Origin: an uncultured Prevotellaceae bacterium | GTDB taxonomy: Bacteria > Bacteroidota > Bacteroidia > Bacteroidales > Muribaculaceae | Reading direction: 5' to 3' | DNA length: 56,091 nucleotides | NCBI GenBank assembly: GCA_947165675.1 | Contig: CAMVBJ010000021.1 | Span: 1-56,091 of the forward strand | Shown here: positions 46,091-55,548 of the stretch, one piece after another | Layout: the number at the start of each line of letters is the position of its first letter | Position numbering within the stretch: position 1 is the stretch's first letter | Program-made: the position numbers and the translations under genes | Notes under the pieces: model-generated | Told to the model about the DNA's origin: nothing | What the model saw: the letters and a program-made list of their open reading frames with translations, nothing else | The model's database searches: none

Positions 46091-46789
46091 TTATTCTTGC
46101 AGCCCGTGCTCATCATGATGTCGCAAACTGGCGTATCCCCTGGGATTGAGAATGGACAAATAATCATCGTAGGATATAAAACGACCACCCATGGATTTAA
46201 GATGGGCTGTCTCGAGCTGGCAATCAATGAACTTGCCGCCCAATCGTTGCAACAACTTGGCTAAGTGAATGAGAGCCAGCTTGGAAGCATTAGGAACGCG
46301 CGAGAACATACTCTCGCCGATAAAGCATGGGCCACTGAGCACGCCGTACAACCCTCCCACCAGTTCGTTCTGAGCATTCCACACCTCAACACTCGACGCA
46401 TAGCCCTGGCGGTTCAGATGACGGTAAGCAGTGATCATCTCCTCGCCAAGCCAAGCACCATTCTGGTAATACCTGCCATCCACTTGGCTGCATCCTTCAA
46501 TAACACCATCAAAGTCGGTGTTGAACGAGACGCGATAGGTCGTCTTGTTCATCATCGTTCTCATCGAGTGAGAGATGTGAATCTCCTCAGGAAAAATCAC
46601 AAAGCGTTTCAAGGGACAGTACCAAGCAGGATGAGGCCAGTCTCGGAACGAGAACCACGGGAAGATGCCATAACTGTAGGCCAACAAAAGCCGTTCTTCA
46701 CTCAAGTCGCCTCCGATGGCCAACAGGCCGTCCTCTTCCCCAAGATAAGGATCAGGAAAAACCAATTCTTCGGACAATTGAAATACCAT
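46091..46789 (-). CDS. aat: Leucyl/phenylalanyl-tRNA-protein transferase
   Basis: Adds Leu or Phe from charged tRNA to proteins with N-terminal Lys or Arg, marking them for ClpS-ClpAP. The 232-residue enzyme shows FPDPYLGEEDGLLAIGGDLS, YSYGIFPWFS, GGLYGVLSGPCFIGESMFSR and HLKSMGGRFI, the full family pattern with the GESMFS site. It follows clpA after 9 bases in the order clpS-clpA-aat, which unites marking, recognition and unfolding in one transcript. Confidence 0.95.
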   Translation of the reverse strand: MVFQLSEELVFPDPYLGEEDGLLAIGGDLSEERLLLAYSYGIFPWFSFRDWPHPAWYCPLKRFVIFPEEIHISHSMRTMMNKTTYRVSFNTDFDGVIEGCSQVDGRYYQNGAWLGEEMITAYRHLNRQGYASSVEVWNAQNELVGGLYGVLSGPCFIGESMFSRVPNASKLALIHLAKLLQRLGGKFIDCQLETAHLKSMGGRFISYDDYLSILNPRGYASLRHHDEHGLQE

Positions 46790-46798
46790 AGCAATCTA

Positions 46799-49054
46799 CT
46801 ATTCCGTTTGTAACTCCTCAAGGACATATTCGCCGCCCTGCTTGAGAGAGCCGAACAGGATTTCCTTGACAAGGCGAGTCTTGAGTCGGTTGTGGATAAC
46901 CCTATCCATCTCGCGCGCGCCATAGACGGGGCTGAAGCCCTCGTCGAGCAACTGACGGCGCGCCTTGTCGCCCAACTTGAGGGTTACTCCCTTGGGGCTG
47001 AGCATCTGCTTCAACTCACGTAGTTTTTTGTCAAGAATCATGCCAGCCATCTTGTAATCCATGTCATTGAATACAACAATTGACGACAGGCGGTTAATAA
47101 ATTCGGGCTTAAAGGTCTTCTTGACCTGCTTGAGCATAGCACTACCGGCTGTAGTCGTCGATGCAAAGCCAACTGAAGCCTGATGAGCGAACTGGGCGCC
47201 AGCATTGCTAGTCATGATGAGAACCACATTGCGGAAGACAGCCTTGCGGCCCTTGTTGTCACTCAATGTGCCATAGTCCATGACTTGCAGCAGCAGGTTG
47301 AAGATATCATTATGGGCCTTCTCAATCTCGTCGAGCAAGAGCACACAATCAGGATGCTTGCGAACGGCATCGGTCAACAAGCCGCCGTCATCATATCCCA
47401 CATAACCTGCCGGCGAACCAATCAGCTTTGCTACGGTATGTTTCTCGACATACTCACTCATGTCGAAGCGCACAAGTTCCACACCCAGTTCTCGGGCAAG
47501 AACACGTGCCACCTCAGTCTTGCCGACTCCTGTCGGACCGACAAACAGCAGCGAAGCCAGTGGCTTGTTCTCATCGATGAGACCGGCCTTGGCCATCTGC
47601 ACTGCTTGAACAACCTGCTTAACCGCGTCATCTTGGCCATAGATTTGATCCAGGATGCGAGGTTCCAGGGACTCGAGTTTATCCTTGTCGTTCTCATCCA
47701 TCGTGAGGGATTCCACCTTGGCAATGCGGGCAAGGACATCAGCGATCAACGCCTTATCAACACGGCGAGCATCACCCTCCTTGCTATTCATCTGCACCCA
47801 CGCACCAGCCTCGTCTATCAAGTCAATCGCTTTGTCGGGCAAGTAACGATCTGTAATGTGACGGGCACTGCCTGTCACGGCATATTCCAGCGCATCGTCA
47901 TCATACTTTACATGATGAAATGACTCATAGCCATCCTTGAGCATCTGCAGAATCTTGATGGTTTCTTCGATTGACGGTTCGTTAATTGCCACTTGTTGAA
48001 AGCGGCGCATGAGTCCTTTGTTACGCATAATGTAGCGGTTATATTCCTCATAGGTCGTCGCCCCGATGAAACGCACCTTGCCACCTTCGAGATAAGGCTT
48101 GAGCAGGTTGCTCGCATCCATTGAGCCTTCGCCAATCTGGCCTGCACCCACAATATTGTGTATCTCGTCGATGTAAAGAATGGCGCCCTTCTCGGCAGCG
48201 ATGCCCTTCATCACTGCTTTGAGGCGCTTCTCAAAGTCGCCACGGTACTGAGTGCCGGCAATCAGCGATCCCAGATCCAGCTGATAAATGCGGCTGCCCC
48301 GCAGCGATTCAGGAACATTGCCATCCTCAATGCGCTGCGCCAAGCCATATACAATAGATGTCTTACCCACACCTGGCTCGCCGATGTGTAGTGGATTGTT
48401 CTTGTCCTTACGGCATAGCACCTGAATCGTGCGATCCAACTCACTGTCCCGCCCGATGAGCGGATTGTGATCGGCGAGGTGTTCGTTTATGCATAATACA
48501 AAATCGCGCCACGACCCAGCCGATGGATTTGCCTTCTCCGGCAACTCCACATCCCCTTCAATTTCATCACTTATTTCATCTTCCTGCTCACCATCTCGAT
48601 GGACATTGATAGGATCATATACATAGTCCATGCGTTTAAAGAAACGGTCCTTGTCTTCATTCAAGAGAGCCGTAAGACAATTGGTGGCAAATGAATCTTT
48701 AAGCACCATCAATGATCTGAAAAACAACGGCACATCAAGTAGAGTTGCTTTCTCCGACTCACTGGCCTGCTGTTCCATGATTTGCATGAGCTCACCATAC
48801 TGGTGGGAAGCAAACATCTGACGGCTGCTCTCATCATCTTCAAAGTGCTCCTGTCGATCAATATAGTCACGCAACTGTTCCTTCACATCATCAAGAGGAA
48901 GGTCTATAACGGTTGATTCCAAAACAGAAACAACTACTTTATCCCCTAAGGCAGAAAGTAATAGATGTTCCGGTGTCACCAGTTTGTTGCGACACGTGTC
49001 GGCAAGAATCATTGCCGATGTAAAAATATTTTCAAGATCAGTCGAAAAATCCAC
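46799..49054 (-). CDS. clpA: ATP-dependent Clp protease ATPase subunit ClpA
   Basis: A 751-residue two-ring AAA+ unfoldase that feeds ClpP. N-domain about 1-145 (NIFTSAMILADTCRNKLVTP), first AAA+ with Walker A GEPGVGKTS near 225 and YIDEIHNIVGAG, second AAA+ with GPTGVGKTE near 505 and LLLDEIEKAHNDIFNLLLQV. There is no ClpB-type middle coil. No ATG fits: the frame is closed by a TAG just upstream, so translation starts at GTG 49054. clpP is not in the window. Confidence 0.94.
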   Translation of the reverse strand: MDFSTDLENIFTSAMILADTCRNKLVTPEHLLLSALGDKVVVSVLESTVIDLPLDDVKEQLRDYIDRQEHFEDDESSRQMFASHQYGELMQIMEQQASESEKATLLDVPLFFRSLMVLKDSFATNCLTALLNEDKDRFFKRMDYVYDPINVHRDGEQEDEISDEIEGDVELPEKANPSAGSWRDFVLCINEHLADHNPLIGRDSELDRTIQVLCRKDKNNPLHIGEPGVGKTSIVYGLAQRIEDGNVPESLRGSRIYQLDLGSLIAGTQYRGDFEKRLKAVMKGIAAEKGAILYIDEIHNIVGAGQIGEGSMDASNLLKPYLEGGKVRFIGATTYEEYNRYIMRNKGLMRRFQQVAINEPSIEETIKILQMLKDGYESFHHVKYDDDALEYAVTGSARHITDRYLPDKAIDLIDEAGAWVQMNSKEGDARRVDKALIADVLARIAKVESLTMDENDKDKLESLEPRILDQIYGQDDAVKQVVQAVQMAKAGLIDENKPLASLLFVGPTGVGKTEVARVLARELGVELVRFDMSEYVEKHTVAKLIGSPAGYVGYDDGGLLTDAVRKHPDCVLLLDEIEKAHNDIFNLLLQVMDYGTLSDNKGRKAVFRNVVLIMTSNAGAQFAHQASVGFASTTTAGSAMLKQVKKTFKPEFINRLSSIVVFNDMDYKMAGMILDKKLRELKQMLSPKGVTLKLGDKARRQLLDEGFSPVYGAREMDRVIHNRLKTRLVKEILFGSLKQGGEYVLEELQTE

Positions 49055-49095: not shown

Positions 49096-49413
49096 TCACT
49101 CAGGTTCACAGGTAACTTGTAGCGGGAATCCTTCTTGACGTGCCATAGCGGTTGCTTGATACGCCTTTGACATCGCTACATCATAGCTAAACACGCCCAC
49201 AACCGCTTGCCCCTCGCGATGCACTCTCATCATCAATGTCACCGCTTCGTCGGCAGGCTTATTGAAAACGCGACGCAACACCTCGGTCACAAACTCCATC
49301 GTCGTGAAGTCGTCGTTATGAAAGATCACCTTATATTGACGTGGCTCCTCAATCTTGACTCGTTCACGGGTTTTGGTGCCAGTTCCTGTACCTTGATTCG
49401 GTTTATCTGCCAT
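49096..49413 (-). CDS. clpS: ClpS adaptor
   Basis: Delivers N-degron substrates to ClpA. The 105-residue protein has a Lys/Gly/Thr-rich flexible N-terminus and the core YKVIFHNDDFTTMEFVTEVL with the residues that form the N-terminal-residue pocket, and VHREGQAVVGVF. First gene of clpS-clpA-aat, 41 bases before clpA. Confidence 0.95.
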   Translation of the reverse strand: MADKPNQGTGTGTKTRERVKIEEPRQYKVIFHNDDFTTMEFVTEVLRRVFNKPADEAVTLMMRVHREGQAVVGVFSYDVAMSKAYQATAMARQEGFPLQVTCEPE

Positions 49414-49442
49414 TTCTTGCTATAGTTTCTTTTATTCTCTTA

Positions 49443-49473
49443 CAAAAGTACATATTATTCCTTAATTAGACAA
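49443..49473 (-). promoter_or_regulatory. Promoter of clpS-clpA-aat
   Basis: TTG (49473-49471), 20 bp, TACTTTTG (49450-49443) on the minus strand, 29 bases before the clpS ATG. Confidence 0.8.
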
Positions 49474-49573
49474 AAACCATGCCATGAACCATCAACAATA
49501 ATCATGACAACAAAATCGCGTTTATTATGTCAAAAAGTCCACTAAAAGCCTTCTTCCTTTTAAATAATTGATG

Positions 49574-49581
49574 TAACTTTG
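49574..49581 (+). promoter_or_regulatory. -7 element almost touching the hybrid regulator start
   Basis: TAACTTTG ends 6 bases before the ATG at 49588, so the transcript would be leaderless or nearly so. No good -33 TTG. Confidence 0.5.
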
Positions 49582-49587
49582 CACAAG

Positions 49588-52422
49588 ATGATATTAAAGA
49601 GTTATGCGCTATACCTCAGACGCACCCTGACGGCTCGACTGCTGGCAGTGAGCATAATGTTCGCCTTTTACCTGATCGTGGCAGGCGAACCTGTTGACTC
49701 GCTTTATATCATTTACAAAAACGCTCCCGCGCCACAAAAGACGCGAACTGCTAACGACATCTTCAATCTGCTCAAGAACGAGCGACTCACCGATTCATTA
49801 TTCAGCTTTCAGTCGAAAGGGAAACCCGAAACCGTCGATGCGCATGTGCACTACTGGATGGCCGAACACTACTACAGGCGAGGACAATATGACTCGTCAT
49901 TAGAAGCTGGACAGAACGCCATCTCGCTCATATCCCATGTCAAGGATGATCACTTCAAGAGCAATGTGTTAGGAATTGTTGCGAAAACGCAATTATGGCT
50001 CTGTAATTATGATGCTGCCCTCGAGACACTGATCAGGGCATACAAGATTGACTCTGGACTGAAACAGCCAGAACTCATTAGTAGGGACCTAACCACTCTG
50101 GCAACTCTCAGTCTTGAGACCAAGCAGCCTCATGAGGGCCTGAAGTTCATCGAGAAAGCCATCAGCATCGAACGCAACCTCAACCATCCCAATCTCTTGT
50201 CCACCCAGTTAGGCGTTGCCTGTGAATTATACCTCATGAATAATGAGCCAGACAAAGCCATTGCTGCGATTGACGAAGCCTATCAGATCGATTGTCAAGC
50301 AGGACGCAAGAAGAAAGCCGCCATTAGAAAGTCGCAGAAAGCGGCCATCTTCATAGCACAGCACCAGCTGGATAAGGCGTTACAGATGGTCAACGAGGCC
50401 ATGGCCATCTTGAAGCAGACCAACCACACTTATGCCATGGCCGTGTGCTACAACCAATTGGCCGATATCAACCACCAGCTCGGAAACAGAGAAAAGTCGC
50501 TGGAGAACTACAATAAAGCACTGGAAATGAGCATCAAGTGTGGTTCAACAAAGGTTGAGAGCAGAGCTGAAAGGGGATTATGGGAAAACTTACGAGATAG
50601 TAATCCGCCTGTTGCCCTACTCCATCTGGAACGCTATACCGCCCTGAACGATTCATTGTACAGCAAATATATAGCCACAAAGCTCAAGAACTTTGACACA
50701 TCCTTGTCTGATGCCGAATATCAGGTTGACGATCAGCCAGAGGGCAAGAAGACATTTCTCTACATAGCCGCTGCACTACTGGCAATCATGCTCATGCTGA
50801 TGCTCATAGGCTTGTTCAGCGCTTGGCGAAAGAATAAGAGTGCCTTGAAACTTTTTAAGCAATCACAAGACATCAAGAATCGCCTGCTAAGCAACATCAC
50901 AAAAGAGCTACAAGCTCCATTGACGGTTATTCTGGGAGCAGGAGAGCGGCTCGTTGATGAAGGCCGGACATCTGTTGAAGTGAACAAGCGTATGGGAGAA
51001 ATGATTATCAAGCATGGTAATAACATGCTGCATCTCGTTAACCGATTGCTTGACATCGACACTGTGGCCAATACCACGACCGGCCCCGACCTCAAGCCTG
51101 GAGATATCGTGATGTTCATGCGCCTGCTCGTGGAGAACTATACAGACGAGGCTCTACAGAAAATGATTAACTTGGAATTCATTTCTCCATTGAGCAGCTA
51201 CCATGTCATTTTTGCACCTGACAACCTGCGCAAATTCGCCCATATCCTTATTGACAATGCGTTCAAGTTCACCCCTCGCAATGGTTCGGTGACAGTTGCT
51301 CTCGATAGCATTGAGCACAACAAGATGCGACTTGTCGTCCAGGACACGGGCAAAGGCATTCCTGCCAGTGAAATGAATCGGCTATTTGAACCGTTATCCA
51401 ATCAGAATTACAACGATGATGGAGTCTCTACCGGGCTCGACTTATCATTAGCTCACCAACTTATCAGCAACATCAATGGCAGCATTACCGTGGACAGCGA
51501 GCCAGGTAGTGGCACCAAGTTCACCGTCATATTCCCTGTTCAACAATCATTATCCCAGAACAATCTCGATAACGAAGGAACAGCCCAGTTTGTAGAAAAA
51601 CGCATCCGTCAGACGGGAAAGTCAAAACAGAAGCAACTCGTATTCATTGTCGAGAACCATGACGACATCGCGTTCTTTATCGCCAGCATTCTGGGACAAC
51701 AATATGAACTGAGGTTTGCCCGTGATGGTAGCGAAGCGTTCCGCAACGCACAAGACCTGGCCCCGGACTTGATAATCACCAACATCATGATGCCCGTTAT
51801 GGACGGCAAGGAACTCATGAGAAAAATCAAGGGGAACCAATCCTTGAAGCACACACCCATCATCGCCTTGACTTCAAGATCCACTGAACAGGAAAGGATT
51901 TCATGCATTCAAGCCGGGGCCGATGCAGTGCTCGTCAAGCCTTTCAGTTCAACCGAGCTGAAGCTGGTTGCCCAGCGTCTCATTGCACAATGTACCAGCA
52001 TCCGCGAGCTGATGGCCAAGACGAGCTCCGAAGCAAATGACACAGGGGTCGCCGCGATGAGTAAGGAAGACAAGGAGTTTATTAACCGCCTGATCAGTGT
52101 CATCCATGCCCAGATGGCTAAAGATGACATCGATATGGAACATATTGCCGCCGCTCTGTCACTAAGCCGCAAGCAACTGCGCTCACGCGTCATGTCTATC
52201 ACAGGATTGACGCCTGTAGCTTATGTACTGCAAGTGCGTCTCAACTATGCACACCGCATGATCACAACCCAAGACCTATCACTGACTGAAATTGCCAGCA
52301 AATGTGGTTTCCAGAATCTATCCCACTTCTCCAAGACCTTTAAGCAGCAATTTGGTGTCAGCCCAATGCAGTTCCGCAAGAACATCATGGATAATATTTC
52401 ACCCCCTCAGGCTAAAACCTGA
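49588..52422 (+). CDS. Hybrid two-component-type regulator lacking both phosphoacceptors
   Basis: A 944-residue inner-membrane protein with hybrid two-component layout: signal anchor (about 15-32), TPR sensor domain (about 70-370), one membrane helix (about 389-411), HisKA/HATPase region (about 425-645), receiver (about 685-805) and AraC helix-turn-helix (about 840-935, ending FSKTFKQQFGVSPMQF). The H box, normally SHELRTPL, reads TKELQAPL with Lys439 in place of the phospho-His. The ATPase keeps DNAFKFT and DTGKGIP but its G2 loop is degenerate (STGLDLS). The receiver acceptor Asp is Asn732 (IITNIMMPVMDG) and the acidic pair is Glu-Asn; the Lys in VLVKPFS remains. The frame is intact over 2.8 kb, so the gene looks selected, acting by ligand- or conformation-driven means rather than phosphotransfer. 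The frame opens with TTG at 49579; ATG 49588 is the start. Confidence 0.9.
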   Translation: MILKSYALYLRRTLTARLLAVSIMFAFYLIVAGEPVDSLYIIYKNAPAPQKTRTANDIFNLLKNERLTDSLFSFQSKGKPETVDAHVHYWMAEHYYRRGQYDSSLEAGQNAISLISHVKDDHFKSNVLGIVAKTQLWLCNYDAALETLIRAYKIDSGLKQPELISRDLTTLATLSLETKQPHEGLKFIEKAISIERNLNHPNLLSTQLGVACELYLMNNEPDKAIAAIDEAYQIDCQAGRKKKAAIRKSQKAAIFIAQHQLDKALQMVNEAMAILKQTNHTYAMAVCYNQLADINHQLGNREKSLENYNKALEMSIKCGSTKVESRAERGLWENLRDSNPPVALLHLERYTALNDSLYSKYIATKLKNFDTSLSDAEYQVDDQPEGKKTFLYIAAALLAIMLMLMLIGLFSAWRKNKSALKLFKQSQDIKNRLLSNITKELQAPLTVILGAGERLVDEGRTSVEVNKRMGEMIIKHGNNMLHLVNRLLDIDTVANTTTGPDLKPGDIVMFMRLLVENYTDEALQKMINLEFISPLSSYHVIFAPDNLRKFAHILIDNAFKFTPRNGSVTVALDSIEHNKMRLVVQDTGKGIPASEMNRLFEPLSNQNYNDDGVSTGLDLSLAHQLISNINGSITVDSEPGSGTKFTVIFPVQQSLSQNNLDNEGTAQFVEKRIRQTGKSKQKQLVFIVENHDDIAFFIASILGQQYELRFARDGSEAFRNAQDLAPDLIITNIMMPVMDGKELMRKIKGNQSLKHTPIIALTSRSTEQERISCIQAGADAVLVKPFSSTELKLVAQRLIAQCTSIRELMAKTSSEANDTGVAAMSKEDKEFINRLISVIHAQMAKDDIDMEHIAAALSLSRKQLRSRVMSITGLTPVAYVLQVRLNYAHRMITTQDLSLTEIASKCGFQNLSHFSKTFKQQFGVSPMQFRKNIMDNISPPQAKT

Positions 52423-52456: not shown

Positions 52457-52645
52457 ATGATTTCCTCCGACAAGTTTATTGACAACGAAGTCCGGCTCTT
52501 TCAGCAAGCCGAAGAACTCATCGACAAGAGTATTGCCGACATGGGGCAAGATAGCCATGTCGAGTATGCCACGTCCATCGAACGCGATACCAGTTCCGCC
52601 AACAAATGGTTAAAGAAGGTCTTCCGCAAGCTATTCTGCGGTTGA
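52457..52645 (+). CDS. Small protein downstream of the hybrid regulator
   Basis: A 62-residue charged protein with no signal peptide or known motif: an acidic helical N-terminus (NEVRLFQQAEELIDKSIADM) and a basic amphipathic C-terminus (ANKWLKKVFRKLF). It begins 35 bases after the regulator and probably shares its transcript; a small regulator-partner role is a guess. A short hairpin overlaps its end. Confidence 0.5.
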   Translation: MISSDKFIDNEVRLFQQAEELIDKSIADMGQDSHVEYATSIERDTSSANKWLKKVFRKLFCG

Positions 52646-52783: not shown

Positions 52784-52791
52784 TACCTTTG
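52784..52791 (+). promoter_or_regulatory. -7 element upstream of the SGNH hydrolase
   Basis: TACCTTTG, 31 bases before the ATG at 52823; upstream TTTCATGG is only a weak -33 match. Confidence 0.5.
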
Positions 52792-52822: not shown

Positions 52823-53521
52823 ATGAAACGTATAATCATCTTTATCATGTTCTGGAACCTGCTGTTTGGTAACATGGCCCATGAACAGGATTGGGCCAAC
52901 AAGGCACGCTATGCTCGTGCTAATGCGGAACTGCTTGCTCGCAGCAATCAGCCAGTCGAGGTGGTCATGATGGGTAACTCCATCACTGAATACTGGGAAG
53001 AGTTGCATCCACAGTTCTTTGTGGAACACAGATTGATTGGTCGAGGAATCAGCGGTCAAGTTTCAACCCAGATGCTCGCTCGATTCCGTCAGGACGTCAT
53101 TAACCTGAGACCGCGCATTGTAGTCATCAACTGCGGCACCAATGACATTGCCGAGAACAACGGCCCCTATGACGAGGATATCACGATGGACAACATCGAG
53201 TCTATGACTGAGTTGGCGCTATCACACGGCATCCAGGTCATGCTATCGTCAGTATTACCTACTGACAACTTCATTTGGAATCCTACAGTCAAAGATGTTG
53301 TCGGGAAAATTCAACGCCTCAATAGCCGCATCATGAGCTACTGCGCCACCAAGCACATTCCCTATCTTGATTACTACCCTTCCATGACATGCGATGGCAG
53401 GTCGATGACCAAGAGACTCACCGACGATGGCGTGCATCCCAACAACGCTGGCTATGACGTCATGGAAGTCAAATTACTGGAAATGCTTTCAATAATTAAC
53501 CAATATTACAATCAACAATAA
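52823..53521 (+). CDS. Secreted SGNH/GDSL-type hydrolase
   Basis: A 232-residue esterase or acetyl-hydrolase with a signal peptide (IIIFIMFWNLLFGNMA). The four SGNH blocks are present: GNSITE with Ser53, GRGISG, NCGTND, and DGVHPN with the Asp-His pair near residue 205. Such enzymes deacetylate sugars or lipids in the periplasm; the substrate is unknown. Fourteen bases before the M13 peptidase and probably co-transcribed. Confidence 0.9.
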   Translation: MKRIIIFIMFWNLLFGNMAHEQDWANKARYARANAELLARSNQPVEVVMMGNSITEYWEELHPQFFVEHRLIGRGISGQVSTQMLARFRQDVINLRPRIVVINCGTNDIAENNGPYDEDITMDNIESMTELALSHGIQVMLSSVLPTDNFIWNPTVKDVVGKIQRLNSRIMSYCATKHIPYLDYYPSMTCDGRSMTKRLTDDGVHPNNAGYDVMEVKLLEMLSIINQYYNQQ

Positions 53522-53535
53522 TCAACCACTTTTTT

Positions 53536-55548
53536 ATGAGAAAAATCACTGTATTCATCATGGCACTTGTTGCAATGACAGCGGCAGCCGGTAACAATAT
53601 CAAGGCCGTCGACCGTGAGAATCTGGACCCTAACACTGCTCCAGGAACTAACTTTTATCAGTATGCCTGTGGTGGATGGAAACTCAACAATCCACTGGAC
53701 CCACAGTATGCACGTTTCGGTACTTTTGACCAGTTAGCTGAAAACAGCCGCAACCAGGTCAAGGACATCATTACCAACCTCGGTACCAATAACCCTCTTG
53801 GCAGCATCAAGCAGAAGGTGGGTGACCTGTATGCTCTGGGAATGGACAGTGTGCGCCTCAATCAGGAAGGAATGGCACCTCTCGTCGAAGGCATCAAGAA
53901 ATACCAGGCGATGACAAGCAAGGACTTCTCGGTCGCTATCGCCGATATGCACAACGGTATAGCCGACCCATTTTTCAACTCATCAGTAATGGCCGACATG
54001 AAGGACTCTAACACCAATATGCTCTACCTGATGCAGGGCGGACTTGGCATGGGAGACCGTGACTATTACTTGGAAAATGACGCAAACACCGCCAAGGTTC
54101 GTAACGCCTATATCAATTATATCCAGCGACTATTCCAACTCATTGGCTACAAGAAGGGTAACGCCAAGAAGGCAGCTCAAAATATCATGTCGATTGAGAC
54201 TCGGTTAGCCAAGGTTGCCATGACCCGAGAAGACAGCCGTGACTACAGCAAACTCTATAATGTGACAACTGTGGCACAACTCAAGGCCGACTATCCTAAC
54301 ATTAATTGGGACCAGTACTTTAATGGTTTGGGAATAAAGAATCTGGATAAAGTTTGCGTTTTCCAGCCCAAATCGATAGCCCTGGTTAATGAAATGCTCA
54401 AGAGTCTCAAGGAACAGAACATCCGTGACTACCTTATCTTTAAGTATATTGATGCTGCATCACCCTACTTGAGCGACGCATTTGCCGATGCCAATTTTGA
54501 CATGTACAGTCGTGCCATGTCAGGAAAGCAGGTGAAGATGCCTCGCTGGAAACACTCACTTGATGTACCCAATACATTGCTGGGTGAGGCTGTTGGACAG
54601 CTCTACGTTGAGAAGTACTTCCCCGCTGACTCCAAAAAGAAGATGCAACAACTGGTTGACAACTTGAAGAAAGCTCTGGGCGAGCACATCGCCACACTGT
54701 CATGGATGAGTCCCAAGACTAAAGTTAATGCTCTCGTGAAGCTCAACAGCTTTACAGTCAAGATCGGTTATCCCGACAAGTGGCGCGACTACAGTAGCCT
54801 CAACATTGATCCGAGCAAGAGTTATTGGGAGAATGTTTTGAATGCTCGTCGCTTCCAGGCAAAATATGAGTACAGCCAGTTGGGTAAACCTGTTGACAAG
54901 GAACGCTGGTTCATGACTCCCCAAACGGTGAACGCTTACTACGAGCCCTCAAGCAACGAAATCTGCTTCCCCGCAGGCATCTTGCAGGCACCATACTTTG
55001 ATCCTAATGCCGACGAAGCCTGCAACTATGGTGCAATCGGCGTTGTTATCGGTCATGAGATGACCCATGGATTTGACGATCAAGGTCGCAACTTTGACCA
55101 CAATGGTAATATGGTGGACTGGTGGACCGCCGAAGATGCCGCTAAGTTCCAAGAGCTTGCCAACAAGTTAGGAGCTCAATACAGTGCTGAAATTGTTGCC
55201 GATGATGTACACGCCAACGGTAACTTTACAATGGGTGAGAACATTGCCGACCATGGTGGCCTGCGTGTTGCCTACAGCGCATTCAAGAAAACCGAGCAAG
55301 GCAAGGGTAACGAATTGATTGATGGATTCACTCCTGATCAGCGTTTCTATTTGAGCTACGCCAACGTCTGGGCAGCCAATATCACCAAGGAAGAGATGCT
55401 GCGCCGCACCAAAGTTGACCCCCATAGCTTAGGCATCAACCGCGTGAATGTTGCGATCCGCAACTTAGAAGAATTCTTTAACGCATTCAACATCGTTGAG
55501 GGCATGGGCATGTGGCGTGATCCCGCCGACCGTGTTATCATCTGGTAA
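53536..55548 (+). CDS. pepO: M13-family metallopeptidase (PepO-type)
   Basis: A 670-residue exported zinc endopeptidase of the neprilysin family. Signal peptide about 1-18; the M13 N-domain starts at DPNTAPGTNFYQYACGGW. The zinc site is intact: GHEMTHGFDDQGR (His507 and His511, Glu508) and ENIADHGG with Glu568. The end RVIIW is the usual one. It probably digests peptides in the periplasm or outside. Followed by a strong terminator. Confidence 0.94.
   Translation: MRKITVFIMALVAMTAAAGNNIKAVDRENLDPNTAPGTNFYQYACGGWKLNNPLDPQYARFGTFDQLAENSRNQVKDIITNLGTNNPLGSIKQKVGDLYALGMDSVRLNQEGMAPLVEGIKKYQAMTSKDFSVAIADMHNGIADPFFNSSVMADMKDSNTNMLYLMQGGLGMGDRDYYLENDANTAKVRNAYINYIQRLFQLIGYKKGNAKKAAQNIMSIETRLAKVAMTREDSRDYSKLYNVTTVAQLKADYPNINWDQYFNGLGIKNLDKVCVFQPKSIALVNEMLKSLKEQNIRDYLIFKYIDAASPYLSDAFADANFDMYSRAMSGKQVKMPRWKHSLDVPNTLLGEAVGQLYVEKYFPADSKKKMQQLVDNLKKALGEHIATLSWMSPKTKVNALVKLNSFTVKIGYPDKWRDYSSLNIDPSKSYWENVLNARRFQAKYEYSQLGKPVDKERWFMTPQTVNAYYEPSSNEICFPAGILQAPYFDPNADEACNYGAIGVVIGHEMTHGFDDQGRNFDHNGNMVDWWTAEDAAKFQELANKLGAQYSAEIVADDVHANGNFTMGENIADHGGLRVAYSAFKKTEQGKGNELIDGFTPDQRFYLSYANVWAANITKEEMLRRTKVDPHSLGINRVNVAIRNLEEFFNAFNIVEGMGMWRDPADRVIIW

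Follow-up and report, generated by a model that had tools for sequence, protein, structure and literature searches.

The window, that is, the whole stretch of 56,091 nucleotides that was analysed, contains on its forward strand an open reading frame at positions 49588–52422 that encodes 944 residues; the ORF caller's own start is a TTG nine bases earlier. From the N-terminus, the chain consists of a hydrophobic segment, TPR-like helical repeats, a membrane helix and HisKA, HATPase, receiver and AraC domains. Pfam matches above the cut-off are TPR, HisKA (residues 430–490), HATPase_c (545–652), Response_reg (685–792) and HTH_18 (853–931). Both the reading of the frame and the Pfam matches bear out the initial annotation of a 944-residue hybrid regulator with a full layout and an unbroken frame. 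The features of the locus are as follows.

49096–49413, minus strand: divergent neighbour, presumably ClpS-like; then ClpA-like (46799–49054) and Aat (46091–46789)
49574–49581, plus strand: TAACTTTG, taken here to be a Bacteroidetes-type -7 element, ending 6 nt before the ATG
49588–52422, plus strand: hybrid regulator of 944 residues (TPR, membrane helix, pseudo-HisKA, HATPase, pseudo-receiver, AraC-HTH)
49693–50685, plus strand: TPR-like helical repeats, residues 36–366, putative periplasmic sensor
50755–50820, plus strand: hydrophobic stretch, approximately residues 390–411 with limits set by eye, putative transmembrane helix
50875–51057, plus strand: HisKA (DHp) domain (Pfam)
50902–50904, plus strand: Lys439 codon, replacing the phospho-acceptor His (alignment)
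51220–51543, plus strand: HATPase_c domain (Pfam)
51427–51447, plus strand: degenerate G2 ATP lid STGLDLS, residues 614–620 (alignment)
51640–51963, plus strand: pseudo-receiver domain (Pfam)
51652–51657, plus strand: Glu689-Asn690 codons, acidic pair with the second acid lost (alignment)
51781–51783, plus strand: Asn732 codon, replacing the phospho-Asp (alignment)
51928–51930, plus strand: Val781 codon, replacing the strand-5 switch Tyr
52144–52380, plus strand: AraC-type DNA-binding domain (Pfam)
52457–52645, plus strand: small ORF of 62 residues, 34 nt behind the regulator
52784–52791, plus strand: TACCTTTG, part of a conserved promoter-like word before the esterase gene
52823–53521, plus strand: GDSL/SGNH esterase-like protein, conserved neighbour
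53536–55548, plus strand: M13 (PepO-like) peptidase, conserved neighbour

In the alignment, Lys439 falls at the H-box His, Asn732 at the phospho-Asp, Glu689-Asn690 at the acidic pair and STGLDLS at the G2 lid, all as initially annotated. The accompanying statement that all other domains are maintained does not hold: Val781 stands in place of the switch Tyr, and Arg867 occupies the Lys position that the recognition helix contributes to the HTCS contact motif. A relocated H-box His can be dismissed, as residues 425–500 contain histidine only at 476 and 482 and the H box itself has none. The protein has the one-chain HTCS layout of sensor, HisKA, HATPase, receiver and AraC DNA-binding domain, and lacks the phospho-acceptor His and receiver Asp that serve intramolecular transfer in an HTCS; by descent and layout it derives from an HTCS and it is not counted as a working one. 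It combines a pseudo-histidine kinase (HisKA-HATPase fold without the His) with a pseudo-receiver (receiver fold without the phosphotransfer residues). The database cluster P0001 differs from it at five of the 944 positions, which all fall within residues 115–293, and is the same at the catalytic positions.

A protein search gave 163 relatives at E-values up to 1e-10; the best 120 of the 163 were taken, and 106 of these were aligned. Among the matches listed, P0002–P0092 (46–69% identity) form one clade with the window protein and together with it make up a set of 92 rows, from which P0001 and the short P0095 were excluded. Removal of short or near-identical rows (P0073, P0079, P0080, P0082–P0086 and P0092) left a de-replicated set of 83. 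Eleven outgroup hybrids (P0093, P0094, P0096–P0098 and P0100–P0105) were chosen for comparison. Most of the named records close to it are genomes assembled from ruminant-gut metagenomes and carry the labels Bacteroidales, Prevotellaceae or Muribaculaceae. A search of 297 genomes at family rank found a match at E-values up to 1e-120 in 22, of which 20 belong to the genus of the window and the other two have matches of only 29–31%.

The H-box residue in the 83 de-replicated rows is Asn in 60, His in nine, Arg in six, Ser in four, Lys in two and Thr in two. The phospho-Asp is kept in 7/83 and neither residue is present in 68/83; His and Asp occur together once (P0044, with a Glu-Asn pair), the second residue of the pair is acidic once, and His, acidic pair and Asp occur together in none. 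Orthologues with intact His and Asp, which alongside relaxed selection would point to a pseudogene, were not found among the nearest relatives of the window protein: its closest relatives after P0001 among the matches listed, P0002 and P0003, group with it and keep the His with Asn in place of the Asp. A second, genome-derived set agrees, in that L081 and L087 have the His and the acidic pair but Ser or Thr for the Asp. All 11 outgroup hybrids keep the His, the Asp, the acidic pair and the Tyr/Phe, and the active relative encoded in the same genomes keeps the His, pair, Asp and lid in 17/17 matched genomes. According to a published survey (PMC12632262), the catalytic site is missing from 0.9% of HisKA domains and from 2.0% of receivers. 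Because the orthologous family shares this state, the dead phosphorelay is, as read from the aligned residues, a property of the whole family and not the decay of one gene.

Other positions of these domains are retained to differing degrees. The pseudo-receiver keeps its Thr in 91/92 and its Lys in 85/92 family rows. The N-box Asn (78/92) and G1 Asp (89/92) are mostly kept and the G2 lid is mostly lost, with the glycines at 614, 616 and 618 present in 22, 29 and 32 of the 83 rows, respectively; this is the picture that the alignment gives of the nucleotide site of the kinase, on which the initially suggested ADP/ATP sensing would depend. Within residues 429–477 (positions 50872–51018), the family has its own histidines at 476 (78/83) and 432 (60/83; Arg in the window protein), neither of which is found in the 11 outgroup hybrids.

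The switch position 781 is Val in 91/92 family rows and Ile in the remaining one, so that Tyr or Phe occurs in none of the 83; it is Tyr or Phe in the 11 outgroup hybrids and Tyr in all 17 same-genome relatives. In the alignment this is an additional loss that the initial annotation overlooked. Gao, Wu and Stock describe an S/CHIP-DK contact that keeps the DNA-binding domain off in the unphosphorylated HTCS, note that the motif is not universal in HTCS and report that substitutions in this contact in BT4124 gave DNA binding independent of phosphorylation (PMC11253607). The window protein has KHTP-DR in place of S/CHIP-DK. Across the family, Arg replaces the Lys in 85/92 and 32/92 begin the motif with Ser or Cys, and the complete motif occurs in 4/92 family rows, 3/17 active same-genome relatives and 5/11 outgroups. 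Loss of the contact motif was therefore dropped as a special mark of the family: since the active relatives, most of which are without the full motif, and the outgroups often lack it too, it says little about the family.

A quick tree of 25 rows places intact TPR hybrids outside and a pair from another locus, L064 and L065 (∼36% identical), as sister to the family (SH-aLRT 95). In this pair the His is replaced by Asn, the second acid by Ser (giving a Glu-Ser pair) and the Asp by Ala, with the Tyr and the lid intact; the family has gone beyond this state in that the switch Tyr is lost and the lid mostly lost. This arrangement suggests that phosphotransfer was lost first and the switch and lid later, with parallel losses also possible, and L064 and L065 would represent a second or a shared loss of the phosphorelay. 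The presence of the His in 9/83 implies either several losses or some regains.

For four pairs, the least diverged of 14 listed and none including the window protein, dN/dS is 0.090 (L084/L080), 0.115 (L098/L097) and 0.103 (L081/L087) within the family and 0.071 for the sister pair L064/L065; the CA domain has the highest or second-highest dN among the domains in all four. The ten distant pairs were set aside; their ratios of 0.28–0.68 come from pairs picked by low synonymous difference, one consisting of two outgroup proteins and four more including one. The match is free of stops in 34/37 genomes over a wide divergence, and of the other three G060 is open for 942 codons. In G002 (locus L096) an in-frame stop separates the kinase part of the regulator from its receiver part; this could be a sequencing error or a natural split.

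Domain conservation was compared with that of the active relative in 17 of the 21 genomes that have this relative (G002 was omitted as split, and G021, G024 and G036 because the family member was not included). Mean pairwise identity in the family and in the relative, respectively, is 0.463 and 0.490 for the TPR part, 0.414 and 0.623 for the TM/linker, 0.584 and 0.671 for the DHp, 0.547 and 0.671 for the CA, 0.683 and 0.652 for the receiver, 0.478 and 0.287 for the receiver-HTH linker and 0.737 and 0.656 for the HTH. Thus, the receiver is held at least as tightly without phosphorylation, whereas the kinase part has loosened. Judged by these substitution patterns, the regulator is under selection. 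The proposal of a maintained pseudo-phosphorelay is upheld by the state common to the orthologous family, by the dN/dS of 0.07–0.12 in the four least diverged pairs and by the well conserved receiver and HTH; a recent pseudogene was rejected in view of the family-wide sharing of residues together with dN/dS.

The full-length structure model (mean pLDDT 82.7, pTM 0.42) matches the expected fold in each domain, with the TPR part resembling Rap and LGN and the kinase part resembling HK853, WalK, DivL (4q20) and RetS among many others. The receiver model lies 0.9 Å from the VicR receiver over 120 residues. In a model of the receiver-HTH part (pLDDT 89.9, pTM 0.56) the domains are confident and their arrangement is unfixed, and neither model can show dimer geometry. 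The solved HTCS receiver-HTH chain 12aw was matched by sequence. The models thus indicate that the domains retain their folds despite the loss of their catalytic residues.

Members of the family (at least 46% identity) are carried by 37 of 101 genomes of the genus, including G002, split by a stop, and G069, where the gene lies on two contigs. Copies of the M13 peptidase at 83% identity or more occur in 38 genus genomes, the other best copies among the matches listed being at most 78% identical, and 37 of these 38 genomes contain the regulator. The peptidase lies on the same contig as the regulator, behind it and in the same direction, in 37/37 (in G069, on the contig of the second piece). The exception, G009 (L124), has ClpS, the esterase and the peptidase, with the regulator gene missing. 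In a comparison of 30 family loci against the genes flanking the regulator in the window, all 30 have the peptidase, 27 the esterase and 26 ClpS. The gap between regulator and esterase is only 5–35 nt, operon-like, in five loci (L073, L075, L076, L099 and L101). In nine loci fetched from genomes that lack the regulator, no ClpS or esterase was found near the peptidase; L125 has a partial ClpA-like match ∼4 kb away. A link to ClpS-ClpA-Aat was considered and rejected: the regulator-peptidase unit stays together where no upstream ClpS was found (L075, L097 and L098) or where ClpS lies beyond the peptidase (L101, and L134 and L135, two loci outside the 30 that have peptidase, esterase and ClpS), so the Clp link looks positional.

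The small ORF behind the regulator was found in 19 genomes, with 61–76 codons and a start 15–65 nt behind the regulator in the 18 measured (the regulator frame of G002 being split). Met1, Ile22, His34, Glu36 and Tyr37 are invariant in the 19 sequences, which share an HIEY/HVEY motif, and pN is below pS in 171/171 pairs, the pairs being non-independent. Among the 101 genomes it is present in 19 of the 37 with the regulator and in none of the 64 without it above noise (four weak matches, E-values 0.001–0.008, lie elsewhere), an association with a Fisher p of 1.1e-10 when kinship is ignored. A profile search returned 58 proteins, of which the four with names are each called 'hypothetical protein', and Pfam gave nothing above the cut-off for three of the 19. 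By these searches the product is an undescribed family of ∼62 residues, located only directly behind the regulator in the 101 genomes. Judging from its linkage, the small protein, where present, probably acts in the cytoplasm as a partner that modulates the regulator.

In 26/30 family loci the word TAnnTTTG occurs no more than 30 nt from the chosen start and ends 6–13 nt before it; therefore, the transcript may have almost no leader, or translation may actually begin farther downstream. At 26 loci the promoter-like word before the esterase gene contains TTTGTACC in 17 and TACCTTTG in 18. A search of the upstream regions of the loci found no conserved binding site for the regulator. TCTGCCAT and CATGCCA upstream of the regulator were rejected as binding sites, as they are read here as falling in the ClpS start and promoter region. 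In many orthologous loci this region (49413–49588) contains, read along the ClpS strand, the word TGGCATG....TTTGC, which presumably resembles a sigma-54 -24/-12 pair or a -33 box; CATG[AC]CA is found on either strand in 21/26.

The loss of the phosphorelay residues in a protein that selection has retained makes signalling through shape change alone probable. The reading that best fits the sequence evidence is that of a phosphorylation-independent, membrane-spanning transcription factor derived from a hybrid regulator that has abandoned its phosphorelay, and this is considered probable. The periplasmic TPR superhelix would bind a peptide- or protein-like ligand, altered dimer geometry would relay the signal through the membrane helix and on through the DHp coiled coil, and the kinase core and pseudo-receiver would form a scaffold that moves or frees the AraC domain, making phosphoryl transfer unnecessary. 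Targets may include the linked esterase and peptidase genes. Signalling by conformation would be the best fit among the modes initially proposed. Against this reading stand the His still present in 9/83, including P0002 and P0003, the regulator gene missing in G009 and split in G002, the upstream search that yielded no conserved binding site, the esterase promoter word, which also occurs in G009 where the regulator is absent, and the less conserved kinase core, which would also fit partial relaxation.

The absence of a switch Tyr/Phe in all 83 rows and the Arg at the recognition-helix Lys in 85/92 could also indicate a pseudo-receiver locked in one state and a protein always bound to DNA, with control exerted through how much of it is expressed or through the small protein. 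The phosphorylation-independent binding reported for the BT4124 contact substitutions (PMC11253607) and the unfixed arrangement in the receiver-HTH model (pTM 0.56) are consistent with such constitutive binding. However, full-length orthologues keep the TPR sensor and membrane part, which such a binder would not need, and active relatives are often without the contact motif too; constitutive binding is possible but unlikely. If instead the drift of a leftover kinase half towards loss were in progress and only the receiver-HTH part mattered, the lower conservation of the DHp and CA than in the active relative and the events in G009 and G002 would be expected, but dN/dS near 0.1 in the least diverged pairs (which exclude the window's own branch) and a stop-free match in 34/37 genomes make slow decay very unlikely.

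Dependence on a partner, by analogy with DivL-CckA, would make the protein a pseudo-enzyme that either heterodimerises with an active kinase or hybrid regulator or serves as its inhibitory scaffold. The window genome does have an active hybrid relative, 20/20 further loci, all preselected from search matches, also yielded a relative, and DivL and RetS are among the many structures that the kinase core model resembles. This relative is, however, ∼31% identical in the DHp and is unlinked; besides the window protein itself, the one protein found in the genome with HisKA and receiver in a single frame shares 28% identity across the aligned part and is encoded on another contig, and no other HisKA match was found on the window contig. 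The pairing with an active homologue that was initially suggested thus gained no specific support, and a partner-dependent role is improbable. Transfer of the phosphoryl group to another conserved His, at 432 (60/83) or 476 (78/83), would agree with the absence of His from both positions in all 11 outgroup hybrids, but the window protein has Arg at 432, residue 476 sits on the second of the two DHp hairpin helices, and the receiver is without its Asp, second acid and switch Tyr; such a relocated phosphoacceptor is hardly credible.

The favoured reading, signalling by shape change, has single-site precedents. DivL of Caulobacter, whose structure 4q20 is matched by the window model, is a histidine kinase fold without the His; it acts as a pseudo-enzyme on CckA and reads a separate regulator, without a fused receiver or DNA-binding domain. 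BT4236, like other Bacteroides HTCS, is one chain of sensor, HisKA, HATPase, receiver and AraC domain; its phospho-acceptor His is replaced by Gln and its contact motif departs from the consensus, for which a phosphorylation-independent mechanism was suggested (PMC11253607). One-sided loss in an HTCS is therefore already in print, and the initial description as unusual holds, with BT4236 as a precedent. The window family differs in its TPR sensor, its linkage to the esterase and peptidase and the family-wide further loss of the receiver Asp, the second acid, the switch Tyr and, mostly, the ATP lid. In ALR/PsR proteins the phospho-Asp and second acid are likewise replaced, Asn being common at the second acid in PsRs (PMC12632262, PMC4395418), whereas the window pseudo-receiver is fused to its own pseudo-kinase and mostly keeps the Thr and Lys. 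FimS of Porphyromonas gingivalis also carries a periplasmic TPR sensor on a histidine kinase (PMC11053733) but pairs with a separate regulator, FimR, and the window protein scores 96 bits with the FimS NCBIfam model, below the cut-off of 600. In the open-licence literature searched, no paper on Bacteroidetes TPR-kinase-receiver-AraC regulators was found, and among the matches listed none describes such a family of degenerate hybrid regulators. What is new relative to BT4236, DivL and the pseudo-receivers is a conserved family that is dead at both ends and has a linked small protein.

A more speculative possibility is that a hybrid system has been converted whole and stepwise to a transmembrane transcription factor of the one-component type, with the switching once done by phosphorylation now performed by a dedicated small protein encoded behind the gene. 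How pseudo-receivers switch was termed a mystery in a 2025 review (PMC12632262). With sensor, pseudo-kinase, pseudo-receiver and output in one chain, and with intact relatives, an intermediate sister pair and many orthologues, the family forms a natural series, which allows one to ask how a phosphorelay is abandoned while the regulator stays and which bears on whether a change of shape is enough for a hybrid regulator to pass a signal through the membrane.
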